Shown here: piece after piece, positions 1,202 to 20,198 of the stretch | Layout: the number at the start of each line of letters is the position of its first letter | How positions within the stretch are numbered: position 1 is the first letter of the stretch | Source: a virus | IMG/VR virus record: IMGVR_UViG_3300031565_000437 | Location: 1-21,745 of that record | Reading direction: 5' to 3' (one strand) | DNA: 21,745 nt | Program-made: the position numbers and the translations under genes | Notes under the pieces: generated by a model | Told to the model about the DNA's origin: nothing | Databases searched by the model: none | The model's input: only the letters and a program-made list of their open reading frames with translations

Positions 1202-1210
1202 TATAAATAC
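1202..1210 (-). promoter_or_regulatory. Late-promoter candidate GTATTTATA for the secreted-protein gene
   Basis: An exact GTATTTATA in gene orientation ends 5 nt before the ATG at 1196. It lies between the capsid-gene terminator and the next gene, where a new promoter is needed. If it acts as a -10 element, transcription would begin at or next to the start codon. Confidence 0.6.
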
Positions 1211-1221
1211 TGATTTAAAAC

Positions 1222-1252
1222 AAAAAAGGGAAGCAACTTGCTTCCCTTTTTT
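1222..1252 (-). terminator. Bidirectional intrinsic terminator after the major capsid gene
   Basis: The stem GGGAAGC / GCTTCCC (1228-1234 and 1240-1246, loop AACTT, extendable by two A-T pairs) is flanked by A6 on the left and T6 on the right, so both strands show a G/C stem followed by a U tract. It starts 20 bp past the stop codon of the capsid gene on the minus strand. Confidence 0.9.
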
Positions 1253-1271
1253 ATCTTTATCAATCAATTGA

Positions 1272-2978
1272 TTACACAAGGTCACCAATTCCGAATACCT
1301 GTAGACCGTCACAGTAGATTCTACCGTAATATCTGTTCAATACCATTTTCTTTGCATAACGAGTCATGATACCACGAATCGGAGTAAAGTCGAATGGATT
1401 GTACATCACAGGAGTAAGCTGCATTGGTACGTAAGGAGCGTAGATGTATCCTGTTTCCAAGATGCTAGTTCCTTTATGACCAATAAGCACTGTGTTAGCA
1501 GGTGAATAAGGGTCACGATATACTAAGTAACGTCCACTTAAAGTACCGATTTTCTCAATACCCATGTTGTACTTATCCTGCTCTGGAGCAGCATTAGATA
1601 CGTGGAAATACTCAAGGTCATCAAATACAGCAGAAACTTCTGGAGAAACTACTACCCATGATGCGCCACCACGAAGGGTTGCTTTGTGGATTTGTGCTGA
1701 AATCTGGTTGATTTTAGTAACCAATGTCTGATTCCAGTCCTTTTGTACACCGTAATACTGGTTAGTTGCACCTTGCTTGCGAAGACCATTATAGTCCCAA
1801 CGAGCAGTCCAAGCAGCACCTCTACGAAGGTCACGAAGAATTTCACGGTCAATTTCAGCAGCCATTTGCTCTGACAATAAAGCAGTTAATTCTGCTTCAG
1901 CATCAATGTTATGGAATGCTGACACGTCTTGTGCCAATTCTGGTGTCCACATAGCACGCATCTTACGAGTTTCAACAGAAACTGTAACTTGGTCTAGTTG
2001 GAATGTTACTTCAGCCATTCTTGAATCTTCTTCAAGGTCGCTGTAAGTTCTGTAGGTTACTTCCCAATCACTTGGTGCTGGCTGACTTGCGCCACTCAAT
2101 GCTTGGTAACCATTAGTACCTGCGTACTGTAGGTCAACAAGAAGAATAAGTTTACCATTTTTGTCAACAATTGCTTGTCCGTACTTCTGTACCTTTACGT
2201 TGAAAGGAATACTATCGCCAGCAGCGATACCTTCACTTGCGTAAGGAGCAGGAGCAGTAAGAGCAATCGTAGGTAGAGTAACTTTCAATCCAGCAAGGAA
2301 TGATTCAGTGTCCATAGGAACACCAGTTGGTCCTACCAATTTACCTTCTTCAGTAGAATAAATTCCACCAACGGTAATTTGGACAAATTTGTCAGTACCA
2401 ATAACGAATGTTTCGCCAGTGGTTGCGCCAGTAACAACTGTAATGTCACCTTTTGAACGGTCAAATAATGATGTACCTTCTTCATTGTACTCAGTTGCAT
2501 AGAATGCATCGTATAATGAACGGCTTTCAAATTGAGTTCTTGAATCAGCAGCTTTGTCAGCAGCGTTGCCATATGCACCGTCAGGTGAAGTATGGACTCC
2601 AAGAGCTTGCTCTGCCCAAGGTGCAGTAGTTGAATCAACTCTTACACTAGTCTTAGGGTTAATGTAGTATAACTTACCAATAGGTAGGTTAAGTGCCTGT
2701 ACAGACACGATGTCGTTTGCTAACAATTTAGCAAATACTCTTCGGATTACAGGAAAAGCAACTGTTTCAAACTGACCACTGTTTGATGAATCTGACGACT
2801 CATTAATCATGTGTGAAAGTTGATTCTCGAATAACTGAGCACAGTTTTCTTTTACGTTTCCTTCTAATCCTTCTAACAGACCAATCTTTTCCCAACGATT
2901 AGTTGTTATTTCTCTTTGTTCACGGAGTTGCTTTAAACCAATGTTACCAACATCTCCACTTTCGGTTAAAAATCCCAT
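1272..2978 (-). CDS. 23: Major capsid protein, T4 gp23-like
   Basis: This 568-aa protein forms the hexameric lattice of the head. The N-terminus resembles the T4 gp23 leader region, with a RWEKIGLLEGLEG segment (28-40) and an LFENQ block (49-53). FPVIRRVFAKLLANDIVSVQAL (from about residue 75) matches the start of the mature shell domain. The C-terminus has the family-typical FTPIRGIMTRYAKKM. A candidate gp21-type cleavage site, INE|S at Glu60, is close to the T4 site at residue 65. The protein is about 50 residues longer than T4 gp23; the extra length may lie in the beta-rich middle (about 190-290). ATG at 2978 follows the scaffold stop by 26 bp of A-rich DNA with no exact promoter motif, so it is probably co-transcribed with the scaffold. 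A strong terminator follows. Confidence 0.96.
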   Translation of the reverse strand: MGFLTESGDVGNIGLKQLREQREITTNRWEKIGLLEGLEGNVKENCAQLFENQLSHMINESSDSSNSGQFETVAFPVIRRVFAKLLANDIVSVQALNLPIGKLYYINPKTSVRVDSTTAPWAEQALGVHTSPDGAYGNAADKAADSRTQFESRSLYDAFYATEYNEEGTSLFDRSKGDITVVTGATTGETFVIGTDKFVQITVGGIYSTEEGKLVGPTGVPMDTESFLAGLKVTLPTIALTAPAPYASEGIAAGDSIPFNVKVQKYGQAIVDKNGKLILLVDLQYAGTNGYQALSGASQPAPSDWEVTYRTYSDLEEDSRMAEVTFQLDQVTVSVETRKMRAMWTPELAQDVSAFHNIDAEAELTALLSEQMAAEIDREILRDLRRGAAWTARWDYNGLRKQGATNQYYGVQKDWNQTLVTKINQISAQIHKATLRGGASWVVVSPEVSAVFDDLEYFHVSNAAPEQDKYNMGIEKIGTLSGRYLVYRDPYSPANTVLIGHKGTSILETGYIYAPYVPMQLTPVMYNPFDFTPIRGIMTRYAKKMVLNRYYGRIYCDGLQVFGIGDLV

Positions 2979-3004
2979 TTTATTTAATGTTTTATTTTTT
3001 ATAC

Positions 3005-4567
3005 TTAAATTATTTTTTGTCCTCTAGTTCTTGTTTTTTCGACATACTCAATCAATCTTTTCATTTTTTGAATGTGTTTGTCATCAGCATAAGCTGTAAC
3101 TTCTTTCGCTTCGTCAATTTGCTTTGAAGCTGAAGGCGCAATAGAGGCACTTGCCTTAGTTTCAATGCTTTCAGTTAAAGTAGATTTGGTTTGCTTCATT
3201 TCTGTAAGGAAACTTTTGTACTTCTCCTGTGATTCAGCGATTGTATCAACTTTCTTGAACTCGTTGATAATCTTAATTTTATCTTCCTGAGTTAATGCCA
3301 AGCTCTCATTTACCAATAGGTTATTTACATGCGCTAAGTTGGTATTGAAAGTTGCCATCTCTTTTAATTGATTGCGATACTTTTCAAGTGCAGACTTATA
3401 TTGTTCTACTAACGTAGTCACTGACTGCTTATATTTCTTAGTTTCGTTTAATTTCTTTGTCAAACTTTTGTTCTCATTAATTAAACTACTAATCTTTGGT
3501 TCATTTCCTTCATTCTTCATCGCATCACGTAATCTACTTGCTTTACCATAATTGGTATTGTCATTAGCACCTACTTGTCTTGCGTTTGAATGGGTTTGGG
3601 TGTGCTGGATGTTTTCCTCAACTTCTTGTTCACCTTCAGCACCACCGCCTAATACAGCCATTACGTCTGCATCAGTTATTTCTTCTTCATCAATCATTGC
3701 TGTGGTAGGTCCACCGGGATTAACCTTGTTTGCACCTTTACCACCCTGATTTTTTTGTTCTGCAACTTCTTCTTCATCAATCATTGCTGTGGTAGGTCCA
3801 CCGGGATTAACCTTGTTTGCACCTTTACCACCCTGATTTTTTTGTTCGCCAATGCCTTGAATCATTTCGTCAATCTGATTTCTCATATTAACTAATTTAT
3901 CATAAGCAATTCCGTCATCAGGACCACTTTTAGGGTTGGTGTTAATTGTCTCCAACTCATTCATCGCAGAAATTTCTTCCTCGATTTCGTCCATCGTGAT
4001 AACTTCGTCTTCAGCATCTGCGCCTTCCAATGCAGAACCTACACTATTCATATCAAGACCTGTCATGTCAAATTCTTCTTTCAGAGTTGTGTCATTAGCA
4101 ACAGTATCCTGTTTTGTGGTGATTTTATCAAGATATAAGTCACCGTCTTCGGCTTCGCCTTTACCTAGATTTGGAGTATCGCTTTCGATATCCCCCATAA
4201 AATCTTTTTCACGTTCTTCTTTCACAACATCTGGTCCCACTTCAGGAGCCTTTTTATCAAACGGCTGATTTTTATCATCAGCTTCTTTTACAACCTTTTT
4301 GGTCTCTTTTACTTGATTCTTCATAACAGATTCTTCTTTGTTTGATTCATCTTCGCCTGACTTGTCAGACTCTTTAGCTTCGTCTAGTTTCTTATAAGAC
4401 TCTTTAGCTTTTTTATTTTTATTTAACTCTTCTTTCAGTAACTTACTATAACTATCTGGAAACTGTTCAGCTAAATTTTTCTTAGCATTAGCGTCCGCAG
4501 CATCTTGAATCTCTTTGAACTCAACCAAAGCCTCTTTCATTACTGATGTTTTTTTAGTATCTCCCAT
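3005..4567 (-). CDS. 22: Prohead core scaffolding protein, T4 gp22-like
   Basis: This 520-aa protein would form the internal core on which the capsid assembles and is then digested by the prohead protease. It lies between the protease and capsid genes, as in T4. It is highly charged: a Lys/Glu/Asp-rich N-terminal half (1-240), two perfect 27-residue copies (241-267 and 270-296, EQKNQGGKGANKV...), a coiled coil (about 352-470) containing NLAHVNNLLVNESLAL, and a C-terminal helix (HIQKMKRLIEYVEKT). The coiled coil and C-terminus look like T4-family scaffolds; T4 gp22 is roughly half this length, so the acidic N-terminal half is extra. Several [IL]xE sites (LINEN, LNET, FLTEM, TLTES) could be protease targets. 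It has its own upstream motif at 4604-4612. Confidence 0.88.
   Translation of the reverse strand: MGDTKKTSVMKEALVEFKEIQDAADANAKKNLAEQFPDSYSKLLKEELNKNKKAKESYKKLDEAKESDKSGEDESNKEESVMKNQVKETKKVVKEADDKNQPFDKKAPEVGPDVVKEEREKDFMGDIESDTPNLGKGEAEDGDLYLDKITTKQDTVANDTTLKEEFDMTGLDMNSVGSALEGADAEDEVITMDEIEEEISAMNELETINTNPKSGPDDGIAYDKLVNMRNQIDEMIQGIGEQKNQGGKGANKVNPGGPTTAMIDEEEVAEQKNQGGKGANKVNPGGPTTAMIDEEEITDADVMAVLGGGAEGEQEVEENIQHTQTHSNARQVGANDNTNYGKASRLRDAMKNEGNEPKISSLINENKSLTKKLNETKKYKQSVTTLVEQYKSALEKYRNQLKEMATFNTNLAHVNNLLVNESLALTQEDKIKIINEFKKVDTIAESQEKYKSFLTEMKQTKSTLTESIETKASASIAPSASKQIDEAKEVTAYADDKHIQKMKRLIEYVEKTRTRGQKII
3680..3847 (-). repeat. Perfect 81-bp tandem repeat (87-bp period) within the scaffold gene
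   Basis: Positions 3680-3760 and 3767-3847 read identically, separated by 6 bp. The period is 87 bp (29 codons), so the frame is kept. Identity includes third codon positions, pointing to a recent duplication. Confidence 0.93.
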
Positions 4568-4603
4568 CTTATTAAATTGTCGTATCTAATACTGTAATTT
4601 TTA

Positions 4604-4612
4604 TATAAATAC
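4604..4612 (-). promoter_or_regulatory. Late-promoter candidate GTATTTATA for the scaffold-capsid unit
   Basis: An exact GTATTTATA in gene orientation lies 36 nt before the scaffold ATG at 4567, in a 132-bp gap after the protease stop. It is the only exact copy ahead of both the scaffold and the capsid gene. Confidence 0.6.
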
Positions 4613-4699
4613 ATTCCCATCGGGAAAAAGTATATTTTTTAATAAAAACAGTACAAAATTTCTTGCATATATCGAATTTTATGATTATCTTCTGGCACT

Positions 4700-5416
4700 T
4701 TATAAAAGGAACCTATTAATTGCACTGTTTATTTTTTGGTCTTCTTCCTTAAGGTAAATACCGTTTTTGTTCACGTAATTTTCACCGAAACTCACATTAC
4801 CTTGTTTCTCAGGAAATAGAAACGCACCGGGTGTGCTCGGAGTAGCCACCAAGTCAAAACCAATTAATTCGAAATCGTCCTGAACCAAATTCTCACCATT
4901 AATTTCTTTAAGCGTTCCAACACCACGACTTGAGATACCTAACTTAATCTTATTCTGTAGGTACAGGACAATTTTATCACCAACCACTGAAACGATACCA
5001 AACTTAATGTAACCCGGAGATACAATCAATTTCAATTGACCATATAATACGTTTTCTTGTTCTCCCTTACCCCACCACATCTTAGTAATCATGTGCGAGA
5101 TGTTCTGTAGAGAAATAATACTTGAGTCAGGATGGTCGGCTTCAGATACCGCACTATTGGTTTGGACTAATTCTTGATAAACTTGTACTTGAGGAACCAA
5201 AACGTTCTGAGGATAGATACGACCATTTTTATTTTTAACCCCCCATTTCTGTAATATACAATTAACCAACACTGGTTCGTTTAGCTTTAGCTCGAAATTC
5301 TCATTAAGAATATCTTTGTTGATTTCGGAATTAATAAACCCGGCATCATGCTCGATTAATATACCAAAACCAGTATCGCCTTCCTCTAATATCTTGCTTA
5401 ATTCTTTCTTTAACAT
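4700..5416 (-). CDS. 21: Prohead maturation protease, T4 gp21-like
   Basis: This 238-aa serine protease of the T4 gp21 / herpesvirus-assemblin-like fold cleaves scaffold and capsid precursors inside the prohead. The catalytic His lies in SEADHPDS (His95), and the nucleophile Ser in the family signature LGISSRGVGTL (Ser162 or Ser163; by alignment with GISSRG-type signatures I favour Ser162). A following FELIGFDLVATPSTPGAFL block (182-200) is also typical. T4 gp21 is about 212 aa, so length fits. The last 30 or so residues are charged and may be self-cleaved. The start at 5416 gives MLKKELSKIL and lies 13 nt after a CTATTTATA motif. Order protease, scaffold, capsid is the T4 order. Confidence 0.94.
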   Translation of the reverse strand: MLKKELSKILEEGDTGFGILIEHDAGFINSEINKDILNENFELKLNEPVLVNCILQKWGVKNKNGRIYPQNVLVPQVQVYQELVQTNSAVSEADHPDSSIISLQNISHMITKMWWGKGEQENVLYGQLKLIVSPGYIKFGIVSVVGDKIVLYLQNKIKLGISSRGVGTLKEINGENLVQDDFELIGFDLVATPSTPGAFLFPEKQGNVSFGENYVNKNGIYLKEEDQKINSAINRFLL

Positions 5417-5429
5417 CTTGAATCTTTAT

Positions 5430-5438
5430 TATAAATAG
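5430..5438 (-). promoter_or_regulatory. Late-promoter candidate CTATTTATA for the protease gene
   Basis: CTATTTATA in gene orientation, 13 nt before the ATG at 5416. It differs from the commonest form only in the first base (C for G). Confidence 0.55.
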
Positions 5439-5452
5439 TTTTAATTACTATT

Positions 5453-5602
5453 TTAACCCCCCATGAGTCTTGGAGTTTCTTCTTTAAGAACAATTTCATT
5501 GATATCGTGTATGTTTTCCACAAACATTCGGGTTTCCAATTCCATTAATTTTTCACTGATAATAACATTAATTTCCTTGAGCTTCTCCAATTTTTTTGTC
5601 AT
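5453..5602 (-). CDS. 49-aa coiled-coil miniprotein
   Basis: A short frame starts with ATG at 5602 and ends with TAA at 5453-5455. The product begins MTKKLEKLKEINVIIS and ends RLMGG. It is a mostly helical, highly charged peptide with leucine/isoleucine spacing compatible with a coiled coil and no membrane span. It begins 10 bp after the stop of the membrane coiled-coil gene and ends 15 bp before the next promoter motif, filling an otherwise unexplained 197-bp gap between genes. Codon use and tight spacing support a real gene, probably co-transcribed with the gene in front. Function is unknown; a partner of the neighbouring 136-aa protein or a small core peptide are both possible. Confidence 0.65.
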   Translation of the reverse strand: MTKKLEKLKEINVIISEKLMELETRMFVENIHDINEIVLKEETPRLMGG

Positions 5603-5612
5603 AATGGTGGGC

Positions 5613-6034: not shown

Positions 6035-6043
6035 TATAAATAG
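6035..6043 (-). promoter_or_regulatory. Late-promoter candidate CTATTTATA, leftward arm of a divergent pair
   Basis: CTATTTATA in gene orientation, 11 nt before the ATG at 6023. With the plus-strand copy at 6093-6101 it forms a divergent pair inside a 93-bp intergenic region. Confidence 0.55.
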
Positions 6044-6092: not shown

Positions 6093-6101
6093 GTATTTAT
6101 A
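6093..6101 (+). promoter_or_regulatory. Late-promoter candidate GTATTTATA for the giant hub gene
   Basis: An exact GTATTTATA on the plus strand, 15 nt before the ATG at 6117. It is the only plus-strand gene start in the window and the motif flips with the gene, showing that its orientation is tied to transcription direction. Confidence 0.62.
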
Positions 6102-6116: not shown

Positions 6117-9100
6117 ATGGCAATCGATGTAATTAAAACAAACGGTAACGTAATGCTGGTATCACCAAACAGTGTGAATATTAATACTGATATGGTTAAT
6201 GGTGTCCCACAATACGAAAACATGTATATATTTGCTGAATTAACAGCACAAAGTAAGGGAAGAACCATTATCATTAATAGTGACGCACAAACCACAACTT
6301 CAAAAAAAGTAAATTTCATCGGAAATGACCAGAACAACAATGTTGATAACCCAAACTATTTGAATTTTACAACAAATTATTATGATGGGAGTACTGGTGA
6401 GAATACACATTATGAGGGTTTTGGAATTAACAATATTAAAATCGTAATTAATTCATCATTTATTCCACAAGTGAGCATTCAATTTGTTGATGTCAGAGGT
6501 TTGGCGTTTTTTAATCAAACCGAATCACCATATAGAATTTTATTTGACTTCCCACCACCAATATTCACTTTAACAGTAAAAGGGTATTATGGCAAACCAA
6601 TAACATATAGATTACATCTTGTTAAATACACATCAGAATTTAGTTCAGCAAATGGTAATTTTATAATCGATGCTCAGTTTGTTGCAATGACATTTGCGCC
6701 ATTGTCAGACATATTATTTAGATATATAGTGAATACTCCATTGATTGATGATGCAGCATCGATGACACCAAAACCTAACGTTCCACCTAAGAATACCTAT
6801 GAATTGATTCTGAAACTAAAGAATCTATATAAGGAAATTGCAAAAAAATTAGAAACTGATGAGGAAAATATTGAATATAAGGACATAAATGATGATGTTA
6901 AAAAGATTGATGCCATTAATGAAATATTAAATGGTTTTAAGGGTAACGAAGGCTTAAATAAACCCGGAATACCATTAATGGTAATAAGAGCACCATTTGT
7001 GGATGATAGTAGGTATATATTCCCCAAAACAAATTCAATTCCTGATGAACAATTAGAAATAATTGAACACACATCTGCATTCGATACTATAATAGCAAGC
7101 TCACAATCGAGTGGAAGAAAAAGCACACCCAAGCATAGACTATATATTCTTTATCTTGTTGGTGATGGTATTCCGATTCCAGATAACACAAAACCACCAA
7201 CAACCTATACCACACCAAAACCACTATATTGGCAAAATCCAACGCAAAACGATAGTGGATTTAATAAAGCATTAGTTGCATATAAAAAAATGTTACAGGG
7301 TGAAGCTACCACAATAGTCAGTCTTAATTCTAGGGATGATGATATTGCTGACCCGAAATCATTTCTCAATAAATCAAATGTGGTGAATGGTACTTTTGAT
7401 TATAGTAATACTGGTGGAACTAAATATTATGGACTGGATATCACCACTTTTTATCATAAAATATATCAGAAAAAAGCTGAATTAGAAAAAGACAGAACTC
7501 AACTTGCAATAGATATTATAACCAAAATCAACAACATGGTACAGGAAAAACTAGGAATGATACCATCAATATATAATATTTTTGATATTATTCTGAGTGA
7601 TGTTGATAAATTCTTTAACAAATTAAAATCGGTATCATATGAAGCCTATAAATCACACAATAATATAGATGCGAATAAAAGACTTATTCTTGGTGACGGT
7701 GGTTATGCTGAGAATAAAAATCTCGAAGTATATTCATTCCCGTTGATTATTAATAAGGGACTTGATGGTAGAGAAGAACGAATTGCTCCGGTTGAATTAA
7801 GAAGAAAAATTCCTTTTCCTGAAATAGACCTTTGTACCGATTTCATTGATACGTTTCTGGCTCAAAGAAGATTGGAAAAGGAGTATAATTTAAAGGATGA
7901 CCAAGCCGATGATGGTACTTATAAATGGATACCGATATCGCCATTCGACTCAACAATTGGTGGTGCTTCACCTCAAAGTCCATATTTGGGTCTTAGTGAT
8001 GATGTACGAACAGAAACACTTAAAATACTTTTAAATCGTTTCTATATGCTAACACAAGGTACATTACCGGAAGCGTTTTATGCGGAACCAACAGATGATA
8101 GAAAAAAGGATAAGGCAAATATTATTATTAATGATGCCTATGTGGAACTATATGGAAAAGCAGAAGCAATTAACTTGAATTCGGCAATATTCTCAGAAAA
8201 AACTAGAATGGCAATTGAGGTTATGGCAAATCAATATAACAGAACTAAATTAGAAAGATTCTATGAAGACATTAAAAAAGTTAGTTTCACATATGCCACT
8301 GGAAACACTGGTCCACCAGCAACATCCAATATATATAGTTTCCCGACAAACGACCCAAAATACTTATTAATTAATCCTTCATTTACTTCAGAAGGAAGAG
8401 TCTATACTAATAAAACTAATGAGGGATTTGAAGGGATTGAATTTATAGATGGTACTGTCGAGGTTCAAGAACTCAATGAGAAATCAAAAAATCTCATTGA
8501 TGGCTTCTTTGAGAATACTGAAAATAAAAGATTATTTGGTGGAGACCCTGCTGAACACTTTTTTGAATTCACGAAACAAAATTTATTGTATATAAGAGAC
8601 AAAATCGGTAATAAAAGAGTAACAGATTATATTAGTGAAATTCCACTTCGTACCAGATTTCTTAGTGATGCAACTTATTATCCCGCTACTGGACAACGTG
8701 ACAGAAATTTTCCGGGTAGTGGTAATGACGATGCCGAAAGACAAGAAATTGCTTATCAAGAAGGAAATAATTCATTTACATATTTAGGTAGTAATGAGGG
8801 TAGACTTTTGGATAGAAGTAGAGACATTGCTCAAGTTTGGTCTGATGTTTTGGGAAATTATGATACCGAAATTATAGACACAATAACTGGTGAAACTACG
8901 GATGATAGGAGAATAAGTTCAATATTAATACTTTCGAATTTCGGATATACAGTAAGTCCATTCAATAAATATCCAAACTCATTAAATTCAATTGTTTTTG
9001 ATACACCAGCAGCTATTGAAATCCCAGCATATTATACACCATATCTAGGCGCATTACTTAATGCTATTGAAAATGATTGGGTTGATGGTAGTACGGGTAT

Positions 9101-11498
9101 TTTAGAATATTTCATTAATGGTCCGGGTAAAAATCTACCAAATCGTGGTTTTTATATTTTAGCTGATTTACATGATATAGAACTTTATTTATCGGAAAAA
9201 GATAAACAGGAATTAAGAAATACGTATAATAGTTATATGAAAAGGTTTCATGATGAAATTCGTTCGCAAATTGGTGAATTATATATAAGTGTTCATACTA
9301 ACACTGGTCTTAATTTCAACTCTCCCGGTTATACCCCAACACTGGCTCAGAAAAAGATGGACCTATATAGGTATTTTCTTGATGATAATGCCAATCTTGG
9401 AAGAGTGGAAAAAAATATCGACCCAAGTGGGGGTAAGGGACAATATTTTAGCACTATATTAAAAAATCTTATTATTAGGAAAAACCTACTTAATTATAGT
9501 CAATTAACATTCGAAATGCCTCAAACTGGTGAGGTGTTGTTTCAAAATTCTGGATATACGTCACTTAAGGAATTAAATACGAATGGTATTGGAACACTTA
9601 GCAGTGGTGCTACGAAAACAATTAACGATAGTTATTTCACATCGTTATTTACAACCCTTGCTAAACTCGTTGTTGAGAAAAGGGCTGAAATTAATGATGA
9701 GAAAGAGGAACAAGATAAAAGTAAAGGGGATTCTGATATTATGAATCAACTATATTATTCGTTTAAGAATATAAACGATAAATGGTTAACCGGAACAGCA
9801 GTTAATAATAAGAAGGGGTTTCCTTTTAACCCTGATGGTAAAAGAATGATTGATTTATTTTCTTTTGTTGACAGAGGAATGAATCCAATTGGTGAAACCA
9901 TATTAAATGCTGAGATTCTAACCGAAATGATGAATGACCCAAATATTAGTTTATTTACGGTACTATCGCAATTATTGTCATTAAATGGTTTTGAGTTCTT
10001 TCCTCTTCAGAATTTTTTAAATTTTAAAGATGAAAATTCATGGAAAGAATCATTTGAAATATATAATGGTCCTATTGGTCAAGATGAAAATACGTTCTTT
10101 GTTTGTATGTACATCGGTGGTTCTGCAAGTTATCCATCTGTAGAAGGGAACGGTTTTCAGAATGATGGTATTATTGATATCACAGAACCCGGAGTGAAGG
10201 GTTTTGAAAAAAATACCAGTGGTTCACAATATGAGGAAAATCAGAATCAAGAAAAAAACACCAATTTTCCTTGGCGTGAAGTCCGAGCATTTAGAGTTAG
10301 ATTCGGAGAACAAAATCAATCAATGTTTACTGACATGAAAATCGATAGTAAAGAATATCCAGAAACCAATGAAAGTATTCAGATTTTATCAAGATTAGCT
10401 GGTGATAATAATCCCGATGCTGGTATACCTAAAGGACAAAACCTTTACAACTTATATGAAAATAGGTCATATAAGGCAACGATTACTGGCTTCGGAAATG
10501 CCATGATTCAACCAACCCAATATTTTCAGTTGGAGAACATTCCTATGTTCAATGGAGCATACATTATTCTGACAGTAGAACACAATATCACTGCAAATAA
10601 AATGACTACGAGTTTCAGTGGTACGAAACTATTAAAGTACCCTATGCCAAGAGTATTAACTCCTGTTGCATTTATGAATTATGATGGTCAATCAATTGGT
10701 GATTATACCAGACAAGCACTTACTTTAGGAACACAGTTAACTAGTATGGAACCAGATAGAGTTGGTAACCGTAAAGATAAGGGTGGGTTAGATGGTGTGT
10801 TTGGTGTTGATGTTTCTCACCATAACGGTGTTGCTGACTGGAAAAAAGCTAAAGCTGATAGAGTTGAATTTGCATTTATTAAACTCACACAAGGAGATAG
10901 TTTTTATAGTGGTTCTGTACCCAATTATGATATCGATAAGCAAATTAATGATGCAATTGATAATAAGGTAGAGGTTGGGTATTATCATTTCGCTGAATGG
11001 GGGAACACATCTGACCCTGAAGTTGATGGTGTGACTCAAGCCAACAATTTTATTAGCAGATTAAGTGAAGTGCCGAAATCTAAATTTCCTGCCGTTCTGG
11101 ATGTCGAAGGTGGTTGGGCTTGGGCTGCTAAACGAGGTGTACCGTATAGGTGGAGTAATAAAACAACGGACCTCAATATAATGATTCAATCATTTATTAA
11201 CACAATGGCTGATGTGGGATATGAGACAATGATTTATTCTCGTAAAGGATTCATGGAAGAACAGCAAATCACTGGTTTCGGTAAACAAGCGTTATGGTTG
11301 CCTCATTGGTTTGATTTACGTGGAAAAAACAACCCAGAAAGAGACGAACCGCCAGTTCCAAAAGATTGGTTTGATTGGGATGTATGGCAATTCAGCGCAC
11401 AGGGTATTGTTGATGGAATACAACCCGCTCAACAAGAAGGTGCTGAAGGTGTTGATTTAAATGTGATGAGGAAACGTTTTTTTAGGAAATACACTTAA
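6117..11498 (+). CDS. Giant baseplate hub-like protein fused to a C-terminal GH25 muramidase
   Basis: The 1793-aa protein has three recognisable parts. The N-terminus (about 1-210) is beta-rich and includes FGINNIKIVINSSFIPQVSIQF and FTLTVKGYYGKPITYRLHL, typical of tail-hub (gp27-type) domains. Residues about 1395-1525 return to hub-like sequence (ATITGFGNAMIQPTQYFQL, NIPMFNGAYIILTVEHNI), like the end of such hubs. Residues about 1559-1793 are a GH25 lysozyme: DVSHHNG (Asp1565), FAFIKLTQG, GYYHFA, LDVEGG (Asp1662, Glu1664) and a final VDLNVM; the catalytic acids are present. The roughly 1100-residue middle is unassigned. It probably sits at the tail tip and cuts peptidoglycan during DNA entry. 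It is inverted relative to the head genes and its stop overlaps the convergent gene by 4 bp. ATG 6117 fits the motif spacing. Confidence 0.87.
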   Translation: MAIDVIKTNGNVMLVSPNSVNINTDMVNGVPQYENMYIFAELTAQSKGRTIIINSDAQTTTSKKVNFIGNDQNNNVDNPNYLNFTTNYYDGSTGENTHYEGFGINNIKIVINSSFIPQVSIQFVDVRGLAFFNQTESPYRILFDFPPPIFTLTVKGYYGKPITYRLHLVKYTSEFSSANGNFIIDAQFVAMTFAPLSDILFRYIVNTPLIDDAASMTPKPNVPPKNTYELILKLKNLYKEIAKKLETDEENIEYKDINDDVKKIDAINEILNGFKGNEGLNKPGIPLMVIRAPFVDDSRYIFPKTNSIPDEQLEIIEHTSAFDTIIASSQSSGRKSTPKHRLYILYLVGDGIPIPDNTKPPTTYTTPKPLYWQNPTQNDSGFNKALVAYKKMLQGEATTIVSLNSRDDDIADPKSFLNKSNVVNGTFDYSNTGGTKYYGLDITTFYHKIYQKKAELEKDRTQLAIDIITKINNMVQEKLGMIPSIYNIFDIILSDVDKFFNKLKSVSYEAYKSHNNIDANKRLILGDGGYAENKNLEVYSFPLIINKGLDGREERIAPVELRRKIPFPEIDLCTDFIDTFLAQRRLEKEYNLKDDQADDGTYKWIPISPFDSTIGGASPQSPYLGLSDDVRTETLKILLNRFYMLTQGTLPEAFYAEPTDDRKKDKANIIINDAYVELYGKAEAINLNSAIFSEKTRMAIEVMANQYNRTKLERFYEDIKKVSFTYATGNTGPPATSNIYSFPTNDPKYLLINPSFTSEGRVYTNKTNEGFEGIEFIDGTVEVQELNEKSKNLIDGFFENTENKRLFGGDPAEHFFEFTKQNLLYIRDKIGNKRVTDYISEIPLRTRFLSDATYYPATGQRDRNFPGSGNDDAERQEIAYQEGNNSFTYLGSNEGRLLDRSRDIAQVWSDVLGNYDTEIIDTITGETTDDRRISSILILSNFGYTVSPFNKYPNSLNSIVFDTPAAIEIPAYYTPYLGALLNAIENDWVDGSTGILEYFINGPGKNLPNRGFYILADLHDIELYLSEKDKQELRNTYNSYMKRFHDEIRSQIGELYISVHTNTGLNFNSPGYTPTLAQKKMDLYRYFLDDNANLGRVEKNIDPSGGKGQYFSTILKNLIIRKNLLNYSQLTFEMPQTGEVLFQNSGYTSLKELNTNGIGTLSSGATKTINDSYFTSLFTTLAKLVVEKRAEINDEKEEQDKSKGDSDIMNQLYYSFKNINDKWLTGTAVNNKKGFPFNPDGKRMIDLFSFVDRGMNPIGETILNAEILTEMMNDPNISLFTVLSQLLSLNGFEFFPLQNFLNFKDENSWKESFEIYNGPIGQDENTFFVCMYIGGSASYPSVEGNGFQNDGIIDITEPGVKGFEKNTSGSQYEENQNQEKNTNFPWREVRAFRVRFGEQNQSMFTDMKIDSKEYPETNESIQILSRLAGDNNPDAGIPKGQNLYNLYENRSYKATITGFGNAMIQPTQYFQLENIPMFNGAYIILTVEHNITANKMTTSFSGTKLLKYPMPRVLTPVAFMNYDGQSIGDYTRQALTLGTQLTSMEPDRVGNRKDKGGLDGVFGVDVSHHNGVADWKKAKADRVEFAFIKLTQGDSFYSGSVPNYDIDKQINDAIDNKVEVGYYHFAEWGNTSDPEVDGVTQANNFISRLSEVPKSKFPAVLDVEGGWAWAAKRGVPYRWSNKTTDLNIMIQSFINTMADVGYETMIYSRKGFMEEQQITGFGKQALWLPHWFDLRGKNNPERDEPPVPKDWFDWDVWQFSAQGIVDGIQPAQQEGAEGVDLNVMRKRFFRKYT

Positions 11499-12291: not shown

Positions 12292-12300
12292 TATAAATAC
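12292..12300 (-). promoter_or_regulatory. Late-promoter candidate GTATTTATA for the 258-aa gene
   Basis: An exact GTATTTATA in gene orientation, 20 nt before the ATG at 12271 and 42 bp after the portal stop. Confidence 0.6.
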
Positions 12301-14360: not shown

Positions 14361-14369
14361 TATAAATAC
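14361..14369 (-). promoter_or_regulatory. Late-promoter candidate GTATTTATA, proximal copy before the portal gene
   Basis: An exact GTATTTATA in gene orientation, 23 nt before the portal ATG at 14337. A second copy lies 36 bp further upstream. Confidence 0.58.
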
Positions 14370-14396
14370 TCTGAAATTTTGAAAAAGTCAGTTATT

Positions 14397-14405
14397 TATA
14401 AATAC
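14397..14405 (-). promoter_or_regulatory. Distal GTATTTATA copy before the portal gene, within a dyad
   Basis: An exact GTATTTATA in gene orientation, 3 nt past the terminase stop. It lies in TATTTATAAATA (14393-14404), so this site also contains TATAAATA, the T4 late-promoter sequence, in the gene's own direction. Confidence 0.5.
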
Positions 14406-14408: not shown

Positions 14409-16502
14409 CTATCTTTTGTTTTTATCTTTAATGCCTTGAAATAACCAAGCATTTGCACCAAGGGGGTTCAGAGGGTCTGCGCCATCTGCCGTAAACATCG
14501 GTTTATTCTTTAATTTTTTCTTTTCACCAATTTCTTTCATGTCATTTATGGTAAGGATTGATTTAAGCATTTTTTCGGTAATCCCCTTATTTTGCTTAAA
14601 CTTAGCCATATCGAAATTCAAAACATAAAGCCCAATCGCCAATCCCATTATACTGTCATCATGGAAGGTTCGTTTATGGTCAGCAACACGGTTTCCAGCT
14701 ACCGTAACGAACGTTTTTAACTCATTGAGTAATCTTACCGACCTAATAACGACATCCTCTAAATGGATAGCTCTCTGCATCTCAAGAACAACTGACGGAC
14801 GGTTATTTCCAATAAAGAAACCCGGTATCAAATCAATATTCGATACCTTACCATCAGGCATGACTTTTACCCCCATCTTAATATATCCATTTAATCGGTC
14901 TCGTGTTGGTTTGTGTCCTACTTCAGCATAATGGACATTCTCATAACCCATTTCAAGTAATTTTTCAACAGTATGTACACCATGACCACCAGTGATATCA
15001 ACAACACAATATGCGTCATTATATCGTTTACCGTATTGGTATGCTATTTCAGCAAGTTGTTGTGGACTTATTTTACCATAGTATTCCGCAACTTGCTCAA
15101 CTTTATGTCGTTTTATTTTAATTTTTTTCGATTTACCGTTCTTCGTAATAACCTTTTCCTCAATAATTTCAATTGTTTTGAGCATATTGAGTGTAGAGTT
15201 ATCCTCTCCGTGTCCCGGTGAAGCATCGAGTGCCATAATATAGGTTTCACCCGGTTTAGCTTCCTCAAAAATCCACATGTTACCATCAAGATATTCTTGC
15301 GTAAATTCGGTTTGAATTTCATTCTCTTCAATTCGTTTAAGATATACTTCGGCAATAAAGTTATCACCAGAACCTAGAAATGAACAAAGTAATTCCTGTG
15401 CGATTTTACGCATATCACCATTGGCATTACGGACTTGTTCTTCAAACCACGGAGAACTAGCAGTCCAACCATCTTCCATCAACTGGATTCGTTGTTCATT
15501 TGACCTACCATTGTCTTCTAACCTAATTTCATTAGTTTTATCCTTATTCTTCAACCAAACCAAATCTTCATTATATCTTGGGTCATTAAACCACCAGAGT
15601 TCAACAGCGTGAAAATTGTTTTTAGGTTTCCCATTTTCATCCCTTTCCCTTGCACCTTGGAATGTCTTGTAGAATACAGCATCAAGTCCAGAAGGTGTAC
15701 TTACCATAATTGCACGACCACCAGTTTGTAGTGTTGGCAGTGCTGAAGTCCAGAACTTATCACCTTTCTCTGCCCACGCAGTTTCATCCCAGAACAACAG
15801 GGTTGGTGTCATACCACGCAAAGTCTTAGATGCGAATGCACCAAGTCTTGATTTGTTATCGTAAATCTTGAGTTTCTGAGTATCTTTGAGATTCTCATCA
15901 GTATTCCTACCAGTTTTTGGTCTAAGCCATGAAGGACAACCTTCAATAAATTCAACAACATCACTCATTAACTCACCAGTAGCAGTTTCCAGTTTATCGG
16001 CAACAATAGCTGCTTGACGGTTTTTATTGAACATGACGTACCAAGCAATATATGCGCAGGTGGTTGTACTGATACCTGCCTGACGATATTTGTTGGCAAC
16101 GACAAACTTATGTTTTAGGAATGCCCTAATTAGGTCTTTCTGGAAATCAAATAATTTGAAAGGTACAATGAGACCATCAGTACCCTGAGTCTGGTCAAAA
16201 ATTGTCAAGTAGGTTTCAATGAAATAGATAGGGTCTCCTGCACAACGAACGAACTCGTCTTCTTGTTCTGTAAACGTTAGTTCACAGGCTTTTTTTGCAA
16301 CACCGTCTTTAGTGATAACAACGGCTTCAATGCTCCCTGTTTTTCTTAATTTTTTCGCTAATTTTCTGGCTTCTTCTTTTTGTTGTTCCAATTGAGCATC
16401 AAACGGAATAACTGGCACGTGTTCTGGAAAATTCTCATCGGATTTTTTCGATTTTTTCGGTTTCCTTTCCAAATCACTATTTAAATCAAGGTTAAGATTC
16501 AT
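14409..16502 (-). CDS. 17: Large terminase subunit, T4 gp17-like packaging ATPase/nuclease
   Basis: The 697-aa motor pumps DNA into the prohead and cuts it. ATPase domain: adenine-binding region FKLFDFQKDLI (115-125), a deviant Walker A KYRQAGIST (138-146) lacking the usual GK[ST] lysine, Walker B LLFWDE (Asp239, Glu240), and coupling motif VSTPSG (267-272). Nuclease domain: acidic residues in MALDASPG (Asp426), VVDITGG (Asp502) and FHDDSIMGLAIGLYVL (Asp615/Asp616), the T4-type metal triad. It is longer than T4 gp17 (610 aa), with a basic N-terminus and a charged insert (about 441-470). An in-frame ATG at 16550 exists, but it would put the promoter motif inside the gene; ATG 16502 is better. 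The small terminase is not seen. Confidence 0.96.
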   Translation of the reverse strand: MNLNLDLNSDLERKPKKSKKSDENFPEHVPVIPFDAQLEQQKEEARKLAKKLRKTGSIEAVVITKDGVAKKACELTFTEQEDEFVRCAGDPIYFIETYLTIFDQTQGTDGLIVPFKLFDFQKDLIRAFLKHKFVVANKYRQAGISTTTCAYIAWYVMFNKNRQAAIVADKLETATGELMSDVVEFIEGCPSWLRPKTGRNTDENLKDTQKLKIYDNKSRLGAFASKTLRGMTPTLLFWDETAWAEKGDKFWTSALPTLQTGGRAIMVSTPSGLDAVFYKTFQGARERDENGKPKNNFHAVELWWFNDPRYNEDLVWLKNKDKTNEIRLEDNGRSNEQRIQLMEDGWTASSPWFEEQVRNANGDMRKIAQELLCSFLGSGDNFIAEVYLKRIEENEIQTEFTQEYLDGNMWIFEEAKPGETYIMALDASPGHGEDNSTLNMLKTIEIIEEKVITKNGKSKKIKIKRHKVEQVAEYYGKISPQQLAEIAYQYGKRYNDAYCVVDITGGHGVHTVEKLLEMGYENVHYAEVGHKPTRDRLNGYIKMGVKVMPDGKVSNIDLIPGFFIGNNRPSVVLEMQRAIHLEDVVIRSVRLLNELKTFVTVAGNRVADHKRTFHDDSIMGLAIGLYVLNFDMAKFKQNKGITEKMLKSILTINDMKEIGEKKKLKNKPMFTADGADPLNPLGANAWLFQGIKDKNKR

Positions 16503-16516
16503 TATAAAATGTTTAT

Positions 16517-16525
16517 AATAAATAC
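16517..16525 (-). promoter_or_regulatory. Variant late-promoter candidate GTATTTATT for the terminase gene
   Basis: GTATTTATT in gene orientation (last base T instead of A), 14 nt before the ATG at 16502. It supports 16502 as the real start of the terminase. Confidence 0.42.
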
Positions 16526-16544
16526 TATCGACCTGAAAACAGCA

Positions 16545-16576
16545 AAGCACGGTACATATCTGGACGCACCGTGCTT
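16545..16576 (-). other. Perfect 9-bp stem-loop in the 118-bp gap before the terminase gene
   Basis: AAGCACGGT (16545-16553) and ACCGTGCTT (16568-16576) pair perfectly around a 14-nt loop. A promoter motif lies upstream (16613-16621) and another downstream (16517-16525), so the hairpin would be near the 5' end of a short leader transcript. On the minus strand it is followed by TGCTGTTTTC, a poor U tract, so it could be a weak terminator or attenuator, or part of a small RNA. Confidence 0.5.
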
Positions 16577-16612
16577 CGATTTCCTTCGCCCAAATGGAGC
16601 GATGAACACTTA

Positions 16613-16621
16613 TATAAATAC
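16613..16621 (-). promoter_or_regulatory. Late-promoter candidate GTATTTATA overlapping the stop of the 157-aa gene
   Basis: An exact GTATTTATA in gene orientation; its first G is the last base of the upstream TAG stop. The terminase start is 110 nt further on, and the hairpin at 16545-16576 lies between. Confidence 0.52.
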
Positions 16622-17094
16622 TAGAACATTATCGAAGAAGTCTCAACAAATTCGTTGTTTTTTAAAATAATTTTCCTAGAACTCAATAAATCCTTAACCT
16701 TTGTCAACGACATACCGTAGTGAAACACCAATAATGGCACGTCATCGTCATCGGTTTCAAACATCTTCTCATAATCACTAAAACTACCATCAGGTTCTTG
16801 TTCCAGTTCATATGCGAGTGCGTGAATCGTATGATAACCATGCATATATTCTCTATCAACGGCTTCATGTAAACAGAAGAAGTTGAGTGAACTTGTTTTT
16901 AAATTAAAAATAGCATTAATGAAATCAGGTTCAGGTGGGTCTGCATTATCACAAGCAGGACTAATGTCCCATCTCCAAGCCAACACATCAATATTGGTAG
17001 GGTCTAACGAGAAAATGAATTCATAAAGTCCTTCATCTTTCGCATTATACCCAATCTTTAGAATATATATCAGTTTTAGTTTATCTTCATCCAT
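16621..17094 (-). CDS. 157-aa protein of unknown function
   Basis: The product is an acidic soluble protein with no membrane span or signal peptide. Notable features are a Trp/Cys-containing segment (AWRWDISPACDNADPPEPDF, about residues 39-58), a second Cys with nearby His in FFCLHEAVDREYMHGYHTIHA (about 72-92), and an acidic stretch TDDDDV. The two Cys and the His cluster (LHEA, MHGYHTIHA) could bind a metal, but no known motif is complete. It lies directly upstream of the terminase gene, where T4 has the small terminase gp16. It shows none of the coiled-coil character expected of gp16, so I do not assign that role. A GTATTTATG variant motif lies 13 nt before the ATG. Confidence 0.78.
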   Translation of the reverse strand: MDEDKLKLIYILKIGYNAKDEGLYEFIFSLDPTNIDVLAWRWDISPACDNADPPEPDFINAIFNLKTSSLNFFCLHEAVDREYMHGYHTIHALAYELEQEPDGSFSDYEKMFETDDDDVPLLVFHYGMSLTKVKDLLSSRKIILKNNEFVETSSIMF

Positions 17095-17107
17095 AACATG
17101 ATTTTAT

Positions 17108-17116
17108 CATAAATAC
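17108..17116 (-). promoter_or_regulatory. Variant late-promoter candidate GTATTTATG for the 157-aa gene
   Basis: GTATTTATG in gene orientation (last base G instead of A), 13 nt before the ATG at 17094. Position fits the other sites; the sequence match is weaker. Confidence 0.4.
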
Positions 17117-17150
17117 TGAGAACCGGGAAATGATAAAGTATAGAAGCCTC

Positions 17151-17570
17151 TTAATTCTTACTAAATTGTAAGCCACTTTCATTTTTAATTGCTGACAGTA
17201 TGATATTCAATGAAAAGTCATATGCAGAAAGACTTTTCCTTTCCTTGTACTTGAAATATTGAAGTAGTAATTGGGAAACAAATGAAATACCTAACATAAC
17301 CAATGCAATAGTTGGATTTATGAATAATGACAATACTGCAAGAATAAGGAATGTTGTTCTTAGATTGAGTGAGAGTCGCTTCCAACTCAGAACAATGTTC
17401 AGAATATCATCACTATATAATGTGAAGACCCTCCGGTATTCAAACCAGTTCACTTCCGAATTATCTTCTTTGGTTCCCTGAACCTCTGCGAAGATTTCGA
17501 GTTCACGTTGCTTAGAGCCACCAACGTAGCTCCTTTTGAATTTCAAATTATTAAATTTTCTATGTATCAT
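17151..17570 (-). CDS. Small integral membrane protein with a two-helix hairpin
   Basis: The 139-aa product has a basic, polar N-terminal part (1-70), then two adjacent hydrophobic segments (about 71-84 and 87-106) split by FINPT, which look like a membrane hairpin, and a polar C-terminal part. Both ends would then face the same side. I do not recognise the family. It is the one gene in this stretch that follows a terminator yet lacks the GTATTTATA motif. Instead, TACCTTTG lies 13 nt before the ATG, matching the -7 element of Bacteroidota housekeeping promoters. It may therefore be expressed earlier than its neighbours and act on the host membrane, for instance in superinfection exclusion; that is speculation. 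Confidence 0.75.
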   Translation of the reverse strand: MIHRKFNNLKFKRSYVGGSKQRELEIFAEVQGTKEDNSEVNWFEYRRVFTLYSDDILNIVLSWKRLSLNLRTTFLILAVLSLFINPTIALVMLGISFVSQLLLQYFKYKERKSLSAYDFSLNIILSAIKNESGLQFSKN

Positions 17571-17583
17571 AGTTCTTATACGA

Positions 17584-17591
17584 CAAAGGTA
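17584..17591 (-). promoter_or_regulatory. Host-type -7 promoter element TACCTTTG
   Basis: TACCTTTG in gene orientation matches the Bacteroidota TAnnTTTG element. It sits just after a terminator and 13 nt before the ATG at 17570. No TTTG occurs at the usual -33 distance; the nearest, only 11 nt upstream, is too close, so the call is tentative. Confidence 0.35.
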
Positions 17592-17603
17592 AAAAAATGT
17601 TAC

Positions 17604-17632
17604 AAAAAAACCCGAATTTCTTCGGGTTTTTT
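17604..17632 (-). terminator. Bidirectional intrinsic terminator after the 830-aa gene
   Basis: The stem CCCGAA / TTCGGG (17611-17616 and 17621-17626) has a 4-nt loop (GAAA when read on the minus strand) and is flanked by A7 and T6, giving a U tract on either strand. It starts 24 bp after the stop of the 830-aa gene. Confidence 0.92.
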
Positions 17633-17656
17633 CAAATCTATTATTATGATTGTGTA

Positions 17657-20149
17657 TTAAACACCACCCAATTGGGTCTTACCTTGTGTACCACCGTGTC
17701 TGAATTTACTAGGAATTGCAGCAGCTTTACTCGCTTCTGGTTCATAACGAACAGTTTCAAAATCACCACCAAGTCTTAGGGTTCCTCCATTACCATCAAC
17801 AAATTGTTGTAGGATTTCGTATTTTAGTTCAGGTGGAGTAGTCTTTGCTGCTCTACCAATCGCACCCATTTGTGGATTAATTAAAATGTTTTGGAATGCC
17901 TGTTTGAATAATTTTTCAATACCAGCAGCATCTTGTGGGTTAAGTTTTGCAAACCTCTCAGGAACGCTGAAACCCATAATTTCATTTACTGCTTGTGATT
18001 CGAAGAGTTCGAATTGCTTATCAATAGTTCTGTCAAGTTTTTGTAAAGTTGCTGATTTTTTAGTTTCAGTTAAAACAGGTTTTTTCAAACCAGCTTTTTC
18101 TTCAAGTCTGTTGCGAATATATTTTCTGAGTTTCGCTTCGCTTTCATTCATTGTAACGCTAACACTGTCTTTAGTTACTTCAACAGTTGTTATTTCAGCA
18201 CCTTCGGGTTTTACAACACCACCACCCATTGATTCAAAACCTGAAATCATATTCATTTCTGGCTCTTCGTGTTTTGTTAAGTCTAATACGTTGTCTTCAG
18301 CAGGAGCTTCTTCAGCATCAACATCAAGATTCTCGATATCGATGTCTTCACCTTCTTTTTCATCGTTTTCCTTCATTTCGACCTGTGGTACGTTATCAGA
18401 ACTCAACTTCTTACCAGCTTTTTCGCTAACCTTGATATTAACTTCTTCTTCCATTGCTGGAGGCATAACCTCAGTACTGTCAACCGGAATACCGTCTTCA
18501 GCAAGACCTAAACCACCAATACCCCCTTGGGTCTGTGAAGCACCAACTTCTTGGCTAATTGCTGTCATAATTCTTTTCAAATCAACTTTCTCTTTACCTG
18601 CTTTAACTAATCTATTATTTAATGCAGTGATTTGTTTGCCGAGATTAGCTGCAACGCCTTCAAGTTTCTTTACTTCGGCAGGTACAACAGCACTGTGTGC
18701 TGCTTTTTTTACGTCTCCAACATAACCACTTACAGCATCTTTTGCTTGGGTTGCTTTATCACCAATAGCTGTGCCAATTTGGGTTGCTTTATCACCAATA
18801 GCTGTGCCAACCTTTTGTACTCCTTGTTTAACATCACCAGCAACTTTACCAGCAGCACCTTTCATCATTCTACCCAAATTACCGAATAATTCGTTGATTT
18901 GTGCATCTTTATCTTCAGCACTGGTTTCGTTCATTTCCATTGAAAACGGTTCAACCTGATTTGCATATTCATCGTGTCCGTATTCGCCTTTTAGTTTTGC
19001 AAGAATTTCAGGTGTGATGAATAAAGCCACTGCTTTAAAGTCACCATCATTCTGACCTTCATCATGTGCGTTTGCGTAACCGCTAACCATATTAGTCATT
19101 TCTTCTTCACCACATTCCTTAACTGAATCGACATTATAACCACGTGATTCTGCGTATTGAGCAAATCCACCACATTCTGCACATTGTTGTTCTGCAACCT
19201 CTTCTTCTGGTTCTGAAACCATAATTTCGTCACTGGTTTCAGTATCCTCAACATTTTGTCCCAAATCTTCAATATCTTCAGGTGGGACAACCTTTGTAAT
19301 TTTTTCAGCCATTGCTTTTCTGTCTTCGATATCAATATCAGGAAACTTATCTTTAAACGCTGAAAGGAATGTATTCACATATGATTTAACTTGAGAATCA
19401 GTTAATTCTGTTTTTCTCAATTGATTAGTTATTTTACCAAGACTTTTTTCAATTTCTCTTTCGATTTCAGTTTCTGGGTCTTCAACAGCAACTGCTTCTT
19501 CATCACCACCTAATTCCGCATCACCAGCTAGTGGGTCAGCACCCATATCATCCACTGGCATTTCACCACCCATATCACCACCAGCTAGTGGGTCAGCACC
19601 CATATCATCCACTGGCATTTCTTCAGCAGGGGCATCCATCGCATCAATTCCGGCATCCATTTCAGCATCCGGTGCTGGCATAGCTGGTTCAGCAGGTACT
19701 TCAGCAGCAGCAGTTGCAGCGTCTAAATCACCCAACTTATTTGAAGCCATTTCGATTTCCTGTTCAGCTTTACCCTCAATCAACATTCCTTTCTTACCAA
19801 CACTTTTCATTGGCTTGATTTCAAGACCCTCATTGATGGTTTTAAGCATCATGTTCCTGTTTTTTCTGGCTTCAGCTAATTTAGTATATTCGAAATCAGT
19901 GACATTTCCTAATCCACCAATATATACGAAATCCGCAACGGTTTGATTTTCATTAAGACCACCTTTTTTGATGTAGTATTTATGCTGCTCTTTAATGATA
20001 CCATAAGCAACGCCATTCGCTGCTTTTTCAATATCAATTAAAGTACCCAGATTACGAGTCTGTGATTCATTTACTGAAGTTCCCTTTACGTCAGCCAATT
20101 TCTTCATTCTGGCGTAATACGATTCTTGTGATGTATATTTCTTATTCAT
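17657..20149 (-). CDS. Large acidic low-complexity protein with internal repeats; head-core or internal-protein candidate
   Basis: The 830-aa product has no domain I recognise. An ordered-looking N-terminus (1-125, including VADFVYIGGLGNVTDFEY) is followed by an Ala/Pro/Asp/Met-rich acidic region (about 130-235) with two copies of MPVDDMGADPLAG. Next come a helical acidic part with three Cys (QQCAECGG...KECGEE, about 320-345), an 11-residue amphipathic repeat resembling LEA-type helices (GTAIGDKATQ twice, about 440-475), more acidic linker, and an ordered C-terminus (about 700-830) ending KTQLGGV. Sites like INEG (105-108), LIEG (124-127) and VLTET suit the prohead protease. Composition resembles scaffolds and internal head proteins, which is the basis of the call. 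A motif lies 40 nt upstream and a terminator follows. Confidence 0.85.
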   Translation of the reverse strand: MNKKYTSQESYYARMKKLADVKGTSVNESQTRNLGTLIDIEKAANGVAYGIIKEQHKYYIKKGGLNENQTVADFVYIGGLGNVTDFEYTKLAEARKNRNMMLKTINEGLEIKPMKSVGKKGMLIEGKAEQEIEMASNKLGDLDAATAAAEVPAEPAMPAPDAEMDAGIDAMDAPAEEMPVDDMGADPLAGGDMGGEMPVDDMGADPLAGDAELGGDEEAVAVEDPETEIEREIEKSLGKITNQLRKTELTDSQVKSYVNTFLSAFKDKFPDIDIEDRKAMAEKITKVVPPEDIEDLGQNVEDTETSDEIMVSEPEEEVAEQQCAECGGFAQYAESRGYNVDSVKECGEEEMTNMVSGYANAHDEGQNDGDFKAVALFITPEILAKLKGEYGHDEYANQVEPFSMEMNETSAEDKDAQINELFGNLGRMMKGAAGKVAGDVKQGVQKVGTAIGDKATQIGTAIGDKATQAKDAVSGYVGDVKKAAHSAVVPAEVKKLEGVAANLGKQITALNNRLVKAGKEKVDLKRIMTAISQEVGASQTQGGIGGLGLAEDGIPVDSTEVMPPAMEEEVNIKVSEKAGKKLSSDNVPQVEMKENDEKEGEDIDIENLDVDAEEAPAEDNVLDLTKHEEPEMNMISGFESMGGGVVKPEGAEITTVEVTKDSVSVTMNESEAKLRKYIRNRLEEKAGLKKPVLTETKKSATLQKLDRTIDKQFELFESQAVNEIMGFSVPERFAKLNPQDAAGIEKLFKQAFQNILINPQMGAIGRAAKTTPPELKYEILQQFVDGNGGTLRLGGDFETVRYEPEASKAAAIPSKFRHGGTQGKTQLGGV
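18746..18810 (-). repeat. 32-bp tandem repeat encoding an 11-residue helical repeat
   Basis: Positions 18746-18777 and 18779-18810 are identical, period 33 bp, encoding two copies of GTAIGDKATQ-type units in the 830-aa protein. Confidence 0.88.
19522..19621 (-). repeat. 43-bp direct repeat (57-bp period) in the acidic region
   Basis: Positions 19522-19564 and 19579-19621 are identical, period 57 bp (19 codons), encoding two copies of EMPVDDMGADPLAG in the 830-aa protein. Confidence 0.88.
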
Positions 20150-20189
20150 TTGAATATTTTTTATGTGCTAATTATTAGTTACATTTTTT

Positions 20190-20198
20190 TATAAATAC
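20190..20198 (-). promoter_or_regulatory. Late-promoter candidate GTATTTATA for the 830-aa gene
   Basis: An exact GTATTTATA in gene orientation, 40 nt before the ATG at 20149 and 27 bp after the stop of the 82-aa gene. Confidence 0.58.

Follow-up and report, generated by a model that had tools for sequence, protein, structure and literature searches.

The stretch of DNA analysed here (the window), an IMG/VR fragment of 21.7 kb, is 5.0% non-coding. It carries T4-like phage head genes (gp23 capsid, gp21 protease, gp20 portal and gp17 terminase) and raises the question of what kind of signal the box GTATTTATA ahead of its genes is, and what reads it. Late transcription in T4 is the classic example of a minimal sigma factor driven by a sliding clamp, and the late box has been reported to be nearly constant across T4-like phages. 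An earlier note on this DNA had seen the box at the head of nearly every gene unit and recognized in it the reverse complement of the T4 late promoter. We consider, with a probability of roughly two in three, that GTATTTATA is a −10-type late-promoter box read by a diverged phage gp55-type sigma factor. As judged from sequence, it is a variant of the T4-type late promoter that is new and spread broadly across the phylogeny; in the literature available to us, we found no report of TATTTATA as a phage late promoter.

The box at gene starts

The window contains 10 exact copies of [GC]TATTTATA, compared with ~0.89 expected, and this number was reached in 0 of 100 shuffles. The motif count placed all ten where the earlier note had put them, nine on the minus strand and one on the plus strand. 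Each copy lies in non-coding DNA and points at a gene. The note's author had found no exact copy inside a gene, and this was confirmed (0/10 intragenic) even though so little of the window is non-coding.

On the minus strand, exact copies of GTATTTATA precede the 165-aa gene (box 1202..1210, start 1196, gap 5 nt) and the 520-aa gene in the gp22 position (4604..4612, start 4567, gap 36 nt), which is followed by gp23. The form CTATTTATA, likewise exact, precedes the genes for the gp21 prohead protease (5430..5438, start 5416, gap 13 nt) and a 136-aa protein (6035..6043, start 6023, gap 11 nt). The single plus-strand copy (GTATTTATA, 6093..6101) faces a divergent 1793-aa GH25-domain gene (start 6117, gap 15 nt). 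Further minus-strand copies of GTATTTATA head the 258-aa gene (12292..12300, start 12271, gap 20 nt), the gp20 portal gene (start 14337), which has a proximal box at 14361..14369 (gap 23 nt) and a distal tandem box at 14397..14405 (gap 59 nt), and the 830-aa gene (20190..20198, start 20149, gap 40 nt). The portal gene has paired boxes in the relatives G001 and G002 as well. An extra TATTTATA at 14393 on the plus strand overlaps the minus-strand copy (TATTTATAAATA) and has no gene behind it. The 1793-aa protein (6117-11498, plus strand) carries a C-terminal GH25 lysozyme-type domain and is encoded by the sole plus-strand gene in the head block.

Two one-mismatch boxes of the minus strand, also listed in the note, proved to be real: GTATTTATT (16517..16525) lies 14 nt ahead of ATG 16502, the likely start of the terminase gene terL, and GTATTTATG (17108..17116) lies 13 nt ahead of the 157-aa gene (start 17094). 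An exact distal tandem copy of GTATTTATA (16613..16621, minus strand) is situated 110 nt upstream of the same ATG. Box and reading frame together indicate that TerL likely starts at ATG 16502 and not at the upstream GTG 16550. A perfect 7-bp inverted repeat, GCACGGT...ACCGTGC (16547-16574, minus strand), lies between both TerL boxes. The unboxed genes also match the earlier description: those for gp23, the 49-aa, 82-aa and 169-aa proteins and the nucleotidyltransferase lie closely behind or overlap the preceding gene, and the remaining exception, at 17570, has a different promoter upstream.

A search with the capsid protein yielded 80 relatives, mostly of 73-93% identity and on contigs of up to 365 kb, and we therefore place the window phage in an uncultured jumbo-phage group. 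The named phages nearest by capsid are Microcystis phage Mel-JY01, the uncultured phage LR756508, Rhodothermus phage RM378 and Flavobacterium phage immuto, at only 27-42% identity. The relatives are IMG/VR contigs, possibly incomplete genomes, and gene starts were untrained first-ATG calls. In the 80 related contigs, TATTTATA was 67-fold enriched in the 60 nt ahead of start codons; for relatives and window together there were 351 copies in 77 kb of such upstream regions versus 80 in 1,173 kb of gene bodies, and the box-to-start gap peaked at 13-20 nt. Mechanical 8-mer discovery ranked TATTTATA first. The number of boxed genes was 334, compared with 33 after dinucleotide shuffling of the upstream regions, whereas the antisense form stayed near background (68 genes versus 44 shuffled), and over half of its upstream matches either lie before a divergent gene or share bases with a sense box. 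Enrichment and orientation bias at gene starts, on which the earlier proposal had been staked, withstood the genome-wide check in three large relatives. The contigs, being related, do not count as independent samples, so the p-values make the evidence look stronger than it is; more weight falls on the gene-by-gene footprint and on the comparison across lineages.

The footprint covers genes with an assigned start; gp20 and TerL had none assigned and rest on the labelling in three relatives and on immuto. An exact or near box was found ahead of the gp22 homologues in 74 of 75 contigs, of gp21 in 68/73, of the 258-aa gene in 43/46, of the 136-aa gene in 36/36 and of the 165-aa gene in 21/22. Homologues of gp23 had a box in 0 of 73 cases, and gp23 is presumably transcribed together with gp22. 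Each gene tends to keep a characteristic gap, ~16 nt for gp21 and ~35 nt for gp22.

Such gene-specific, conserved gaps argue against an element that faces the ribosome. A translation or leaderless start signal, or an operator, would fit a box near start codons with one gap of just 5 nt. However, the gaps differ among genes (5-40 nt) while each gene retains its own, and the box is largely confined to late genes and is missing inside operons, as the gp23 homologues illustrate. Since the gaps range from 5 to ~40 nt, most often 13-20 nt, and most predicted leaders comprise several nucleotides, we regard such a signal as hardly credible. The leaderless reading was discarded, as homologues of the 165-aa gene mostly have gaps of 17-18 nt.

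Late genes and the T4 late promoter

In three relatives, the box was present on 10 of 15 late homologues and on 2 of 16 replication or metabolism homologues (Fisher p = 0.003), with genes labelled by T4 proteins, small numbers, mechanical ORF starts and classes that we assigned ourselves. The separation is incomplete in both directions: part of the late homologues have no box and two early-type homologues have one. In immuto, the boxed genes include those for TerL, portal, sheath, tail completion, baseplate hub, tape measure and tail spike. Because the box stands on virion genes and is largely missing from replication genes, a −10-type box of late promoters is the best reading. Of the two alternatives offered in the earlier note, a changed specificity of the late sigma factor fits best, as the box stands on late genes and is found in phages that also encode a diverged gp55-like protein (see below); the other, a leaderless element or operator, did not find support.

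In T4, the box recognized by gp55 is 8 bp long and lies one helical turn before the transcription start, and there is no −35 element (PMC2988020). The late promoter TATAAATA together with gp55 is known from T4, KVP40 and 44RR, with NATAAATA in S-PM2 and a variant in Aeh1 (PMC2988020, PMC2984593); cyanomyoviruses use NATAAATA (PMC2984593). The box described here resembles that of T4 in being an 8-bp AT box at the −10 position upstream of late genes, oriented with the gene and associated with a gp55-type protein. The logo of 167 sites left after redundancy removal reads A[GC]TATTTATA-NNN-AA, with the trailing AA at 90% and 86%. Around −35 its information content is near zero, so that no −35 box appears among these sites, and only weak T-rich and C-rich positions were seen 13-19 nt upstream of the box. 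The lack of a conserved −35 element and the AT-rich downstream sequence are further likenesses to T4. Unlike in T4, the sense consensus is TATTTATA and not TATAAATA, a G or C (89%) stands ahead of the box and a conserved AA follows 4-5 nt behind it; moreover, none of the gp23 homologues in 73 relatives is headed by a box.

TATTTATA differs from T4 TATAAATA solely at the two central bases, AA to TT. Because TAT and ATA are mutual reverse complements, this exchange turns the whole box into its reverse complement. The earlier identification as a reverse complement of the T4 late promoter therefore holds for the letters, whereas in biological terms it amounts to a two-base change in an otherwise symmetrical box, and no flipping of the promoter is required to explain it. 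Counts of upstream TATNNATA forms agree with a changed sense consensus: TATTTATA led in three large genomes (151 versus 44 TATAAATA), whereas in T4, our positive control for this counting, TATAAATA led (21 versus 5 TATTTATA). We also considered TATAAATA as a second sense promoter of the clade and rejected it, since its excess is partly due to divergent genes and overlap with TATTTATA. Lone TATAAATA copies in the relatives showed no peak at 13-20 nt.

The template strand does carry TATAAATA, and recognition of the T4 letters on that strand would explain a reverse-complement box. Phage AR9 provides a precedent, as the promoters of its non-virion RNA polymerase are read on the template strand (PMC9209446); AR9, however, has a phage multisubunit polymerase and another promoter sequence. 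A two-base central change gives the same letters more simply, and the forms TATTTAA of RM378 and LR756508 are not reverse complements of the T4 box. Recognition on the template strand thus appears highly improbable to us.

Under the preferred reading, the host RNA polymerase core with a diverged, phage-encoded gp55-type sigma factor would bind the box, in which the T4 consensus TATAAATA would have changed at its two central bases. RNA would start near the conserved AA, the fourth and fifth base after the box. If the geometry is that of T4, RNA would start ~4-7 nt past the box and most genes would have leaders of ~8-15 nt; the conserved AA at bases 4-5 is compatible with a start one helical turn from the box centre. 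We infer both the binding of the gp55-like protein to the box and the position of the RNA start from sequence.

A diverged gp55-like protein

The earlier note had suggested looking for a gp55-like gene. The window itself holds no sigma gene; the candidate lies outside it and is known from the relatives. Classical gp55 (phrog_234) was rejected as the late factor because it occurs in only 2 of 22 relatives, too rarely to explain the box. In these it is a short gp55-like protein of 108-119 aa, encoded beside DNA ligase; a third case was found with a purpose-built profile, A1. These short proteins (L090, L091 and L153 in G015, G002 and G005) do not have the C-terminal third of T4 gp55. Profile A1 led to a second protein of ~250 aa, which is present once per genome in 14 of 14 large relatives.

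The ~250-aa family occurs in at least 146 IMG/VR stretches, and a broader profile found more than 400. Distant homologues are present in immuto (immuto26A_153, annotated as hypothetical), LR756508 and Mel-JY01, with a faint match in RM378. Searches for the protein in T4, cyanophage S-SM1 and Salicola phage SCTP-2 gave no match. In comparison with T4 gp55 it is highly diverged and longer (about 230-290 aa).

Several comparisons bear on its nature. Sigma70_r2 matched 11 of 33 family members below threshold, and the sigma family phrog_1740 matched 7 of 33; the Sigma70_r2 scores of some members (13-16 bits) resemble that of T4 gp55 (14.5). In a search of 6712 ORFs, the protein was collinear with cyanophage and Vibrio gp55 at an E value of about 0.1, the cyanophage alignment spanning an N-terminal stretch and the FDP...AFSYF core, and the best matches outside the family included canonical sigma factors. 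Aligned by hhalign with single T4 gp55, the family gave no convincing match. Profile comparison with T4 gp55 or the RM378 sigma factor gave nothing with the narrow alignment and slight matches with broader ones, and a PDB sequence search with the family profile returned nothing relevant. AlphaFold2 models had pLDDT values of 70 and 76 and pTM values of 0.41-0.44; the top Foldseek matches were sigma-32, WhiG and a SigH model (E 0.25-0.6, not significant), and WhiG again came first, not significantly, with the second model. Taken together, the data are consistent with a sigma factor, but weakly so. The C-terminus is highly conserved (...IYF.EK.DYLDD) and recalls the hydrophobic-acidic end of T4 gp55. 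An insertion of ~40 residues inside sigma region 2 is seen in some members.

All box users tested carry the gp55-like protein: the 14 of 14 large relatives, immuto, immuto-like contigs and Mel-JY01. In immuto, 24 genes were boxed versus 2 copies in gene bodies, and contigs fetched with the immuto protein had 115 boxes upstream versus 34 in bodies. In the 50 kb available of Mel-JY01, the box occurred 6 times upstream versus 2 in bodies, and TATAAATA 0 versus 7 times. LR756508 and RM378, whose homologues are more distant, have TATTTAA instead (small partial samples). Phages without the gp55-like protein use forms of TATAAATA: the box of T4 itself, CATAAATA in SCTP-2 (small sample) and NATAAATA in cyanomyoviruses (PMC2984593). 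With a cyanobacterium as the host of Mel-JY01, the box seems to track phage lineage and not host. Another T4-like Microcystis phage, Ma-LMM01, has late promoters unlike those of T4 (PMC5780444). Box and sigma-like protein have apparently changed together in a broad, mostly uncultured branch, with one Flavobacterium and one Microcystis phage in culture. The branch would offer a natural experiment on the change of sigma −10 specificity, and the box would allow late genes to be labelled from sequence in many unannotated phage contigs. In immuto26A_153, the late-sigma candidate has a name in a culturable phage. Further upstream motifs were seen in immuto (TATATTTAGGTA; L146-L149) and in immuto-like contigs (TATCAATAATTAA; L250-L329), where TATCAATA occurs 132 times upstream versus 30 in bodies.

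Sliding clamp, canonical sigma factors and other promoter classes

Activation of T4 late transcription requires the gp45 clamp. With two models, no gp45 scored above cut-off in the large relatives, immuto or Mel-JY01, although the T4 control was detected; one weak match appeared among the 14 large relatives, and a strongly diverged clamp could escape such a search. No beta-type clamp was detected above cut-off in the same phages. The failure to detect either clamp sets these phages apart from T4; T4-like activation is therefore not supported, and the activation step may differ. Immuto is annotated with a family A DNA polymerase. We regard it as possible, though doubtful, that a T4-like branch comprising phages of Bacteroidota and a cyanobacterium combines a diverged gp55 and an inverted-core box with late transcription without a gp45-type clamp, template-strand reading being the extreme form of this idea. 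If true, late transcription in this branch would no longer be tied to the replication clamp, the defining feature of the T4 paradigm.

Canonical sigma factors are a further candidate for reading the late box. Among the 14 large relatives, 13 encode canonical sigma-70 (ECF-like) proteins, one or two each, that scored above the curated Sigma70_r2 cut-off, as would be expected if such a protein, and not the gp55-like one, recognized the box. However, G010 had no Sigma70_r2 match, and the same box is used by immuto and Mel-JY01 in the absence of any match, which indicates that canonical sigma proteins are not needed for it. We therefore consider this assignment unlikely and retain the gp55-like protein as the probable reader. 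The sigma-70 proteins of G002 are encoded at 62542-63189 and 292610-293191. One sigma-70 type sits in a small-gene region rich in promoters of a second class.

The primary sigma factor of the host could also be thought to read the box, which sits at a −10/−7-like position. The Bacteroidota primary-sigma promoter consists of TTTG at −33 and TAnnTTTG at −7. A promoter class resembling it, TTG-N20-TATATTTG, the third in these phages, was found in G001, G002 and G015 and suggests a Bacteroidota host. Yet it is a class separate from the late box in the same genomes: the late box has neither element, and TATATTTG and the late box occurred together on only 10 of 160 genes. Moreover, Mel-JY01, whose host Microcystis is a cyanobacterium, shows enrichment of this box too. 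A host-type element is thus very unlikely.

The second class is strongly conserved and has the consensus TTGTAACATTTT-N11-TTCGTATAAT, with 84 distinct sites in three relatives and the window. It almost never occurs on a late-boxed gene (1/88) and is concentrated in small-gene regions (260-340 kb in G002, 20-110 kb in G015). The temporal class of the second and third promoter classes is inferential. In the window, the second class is represented by TTGTAACATTTTTTTACCTTTGTCGTATAAG (17575..17605, minus strand), which precedes the 139-aa gene starting at 17570. Directly before this promoter lies a terminator-like hairpin, CCCGAA..TTCGGG followed by a T run (17604-17626, minus strand).
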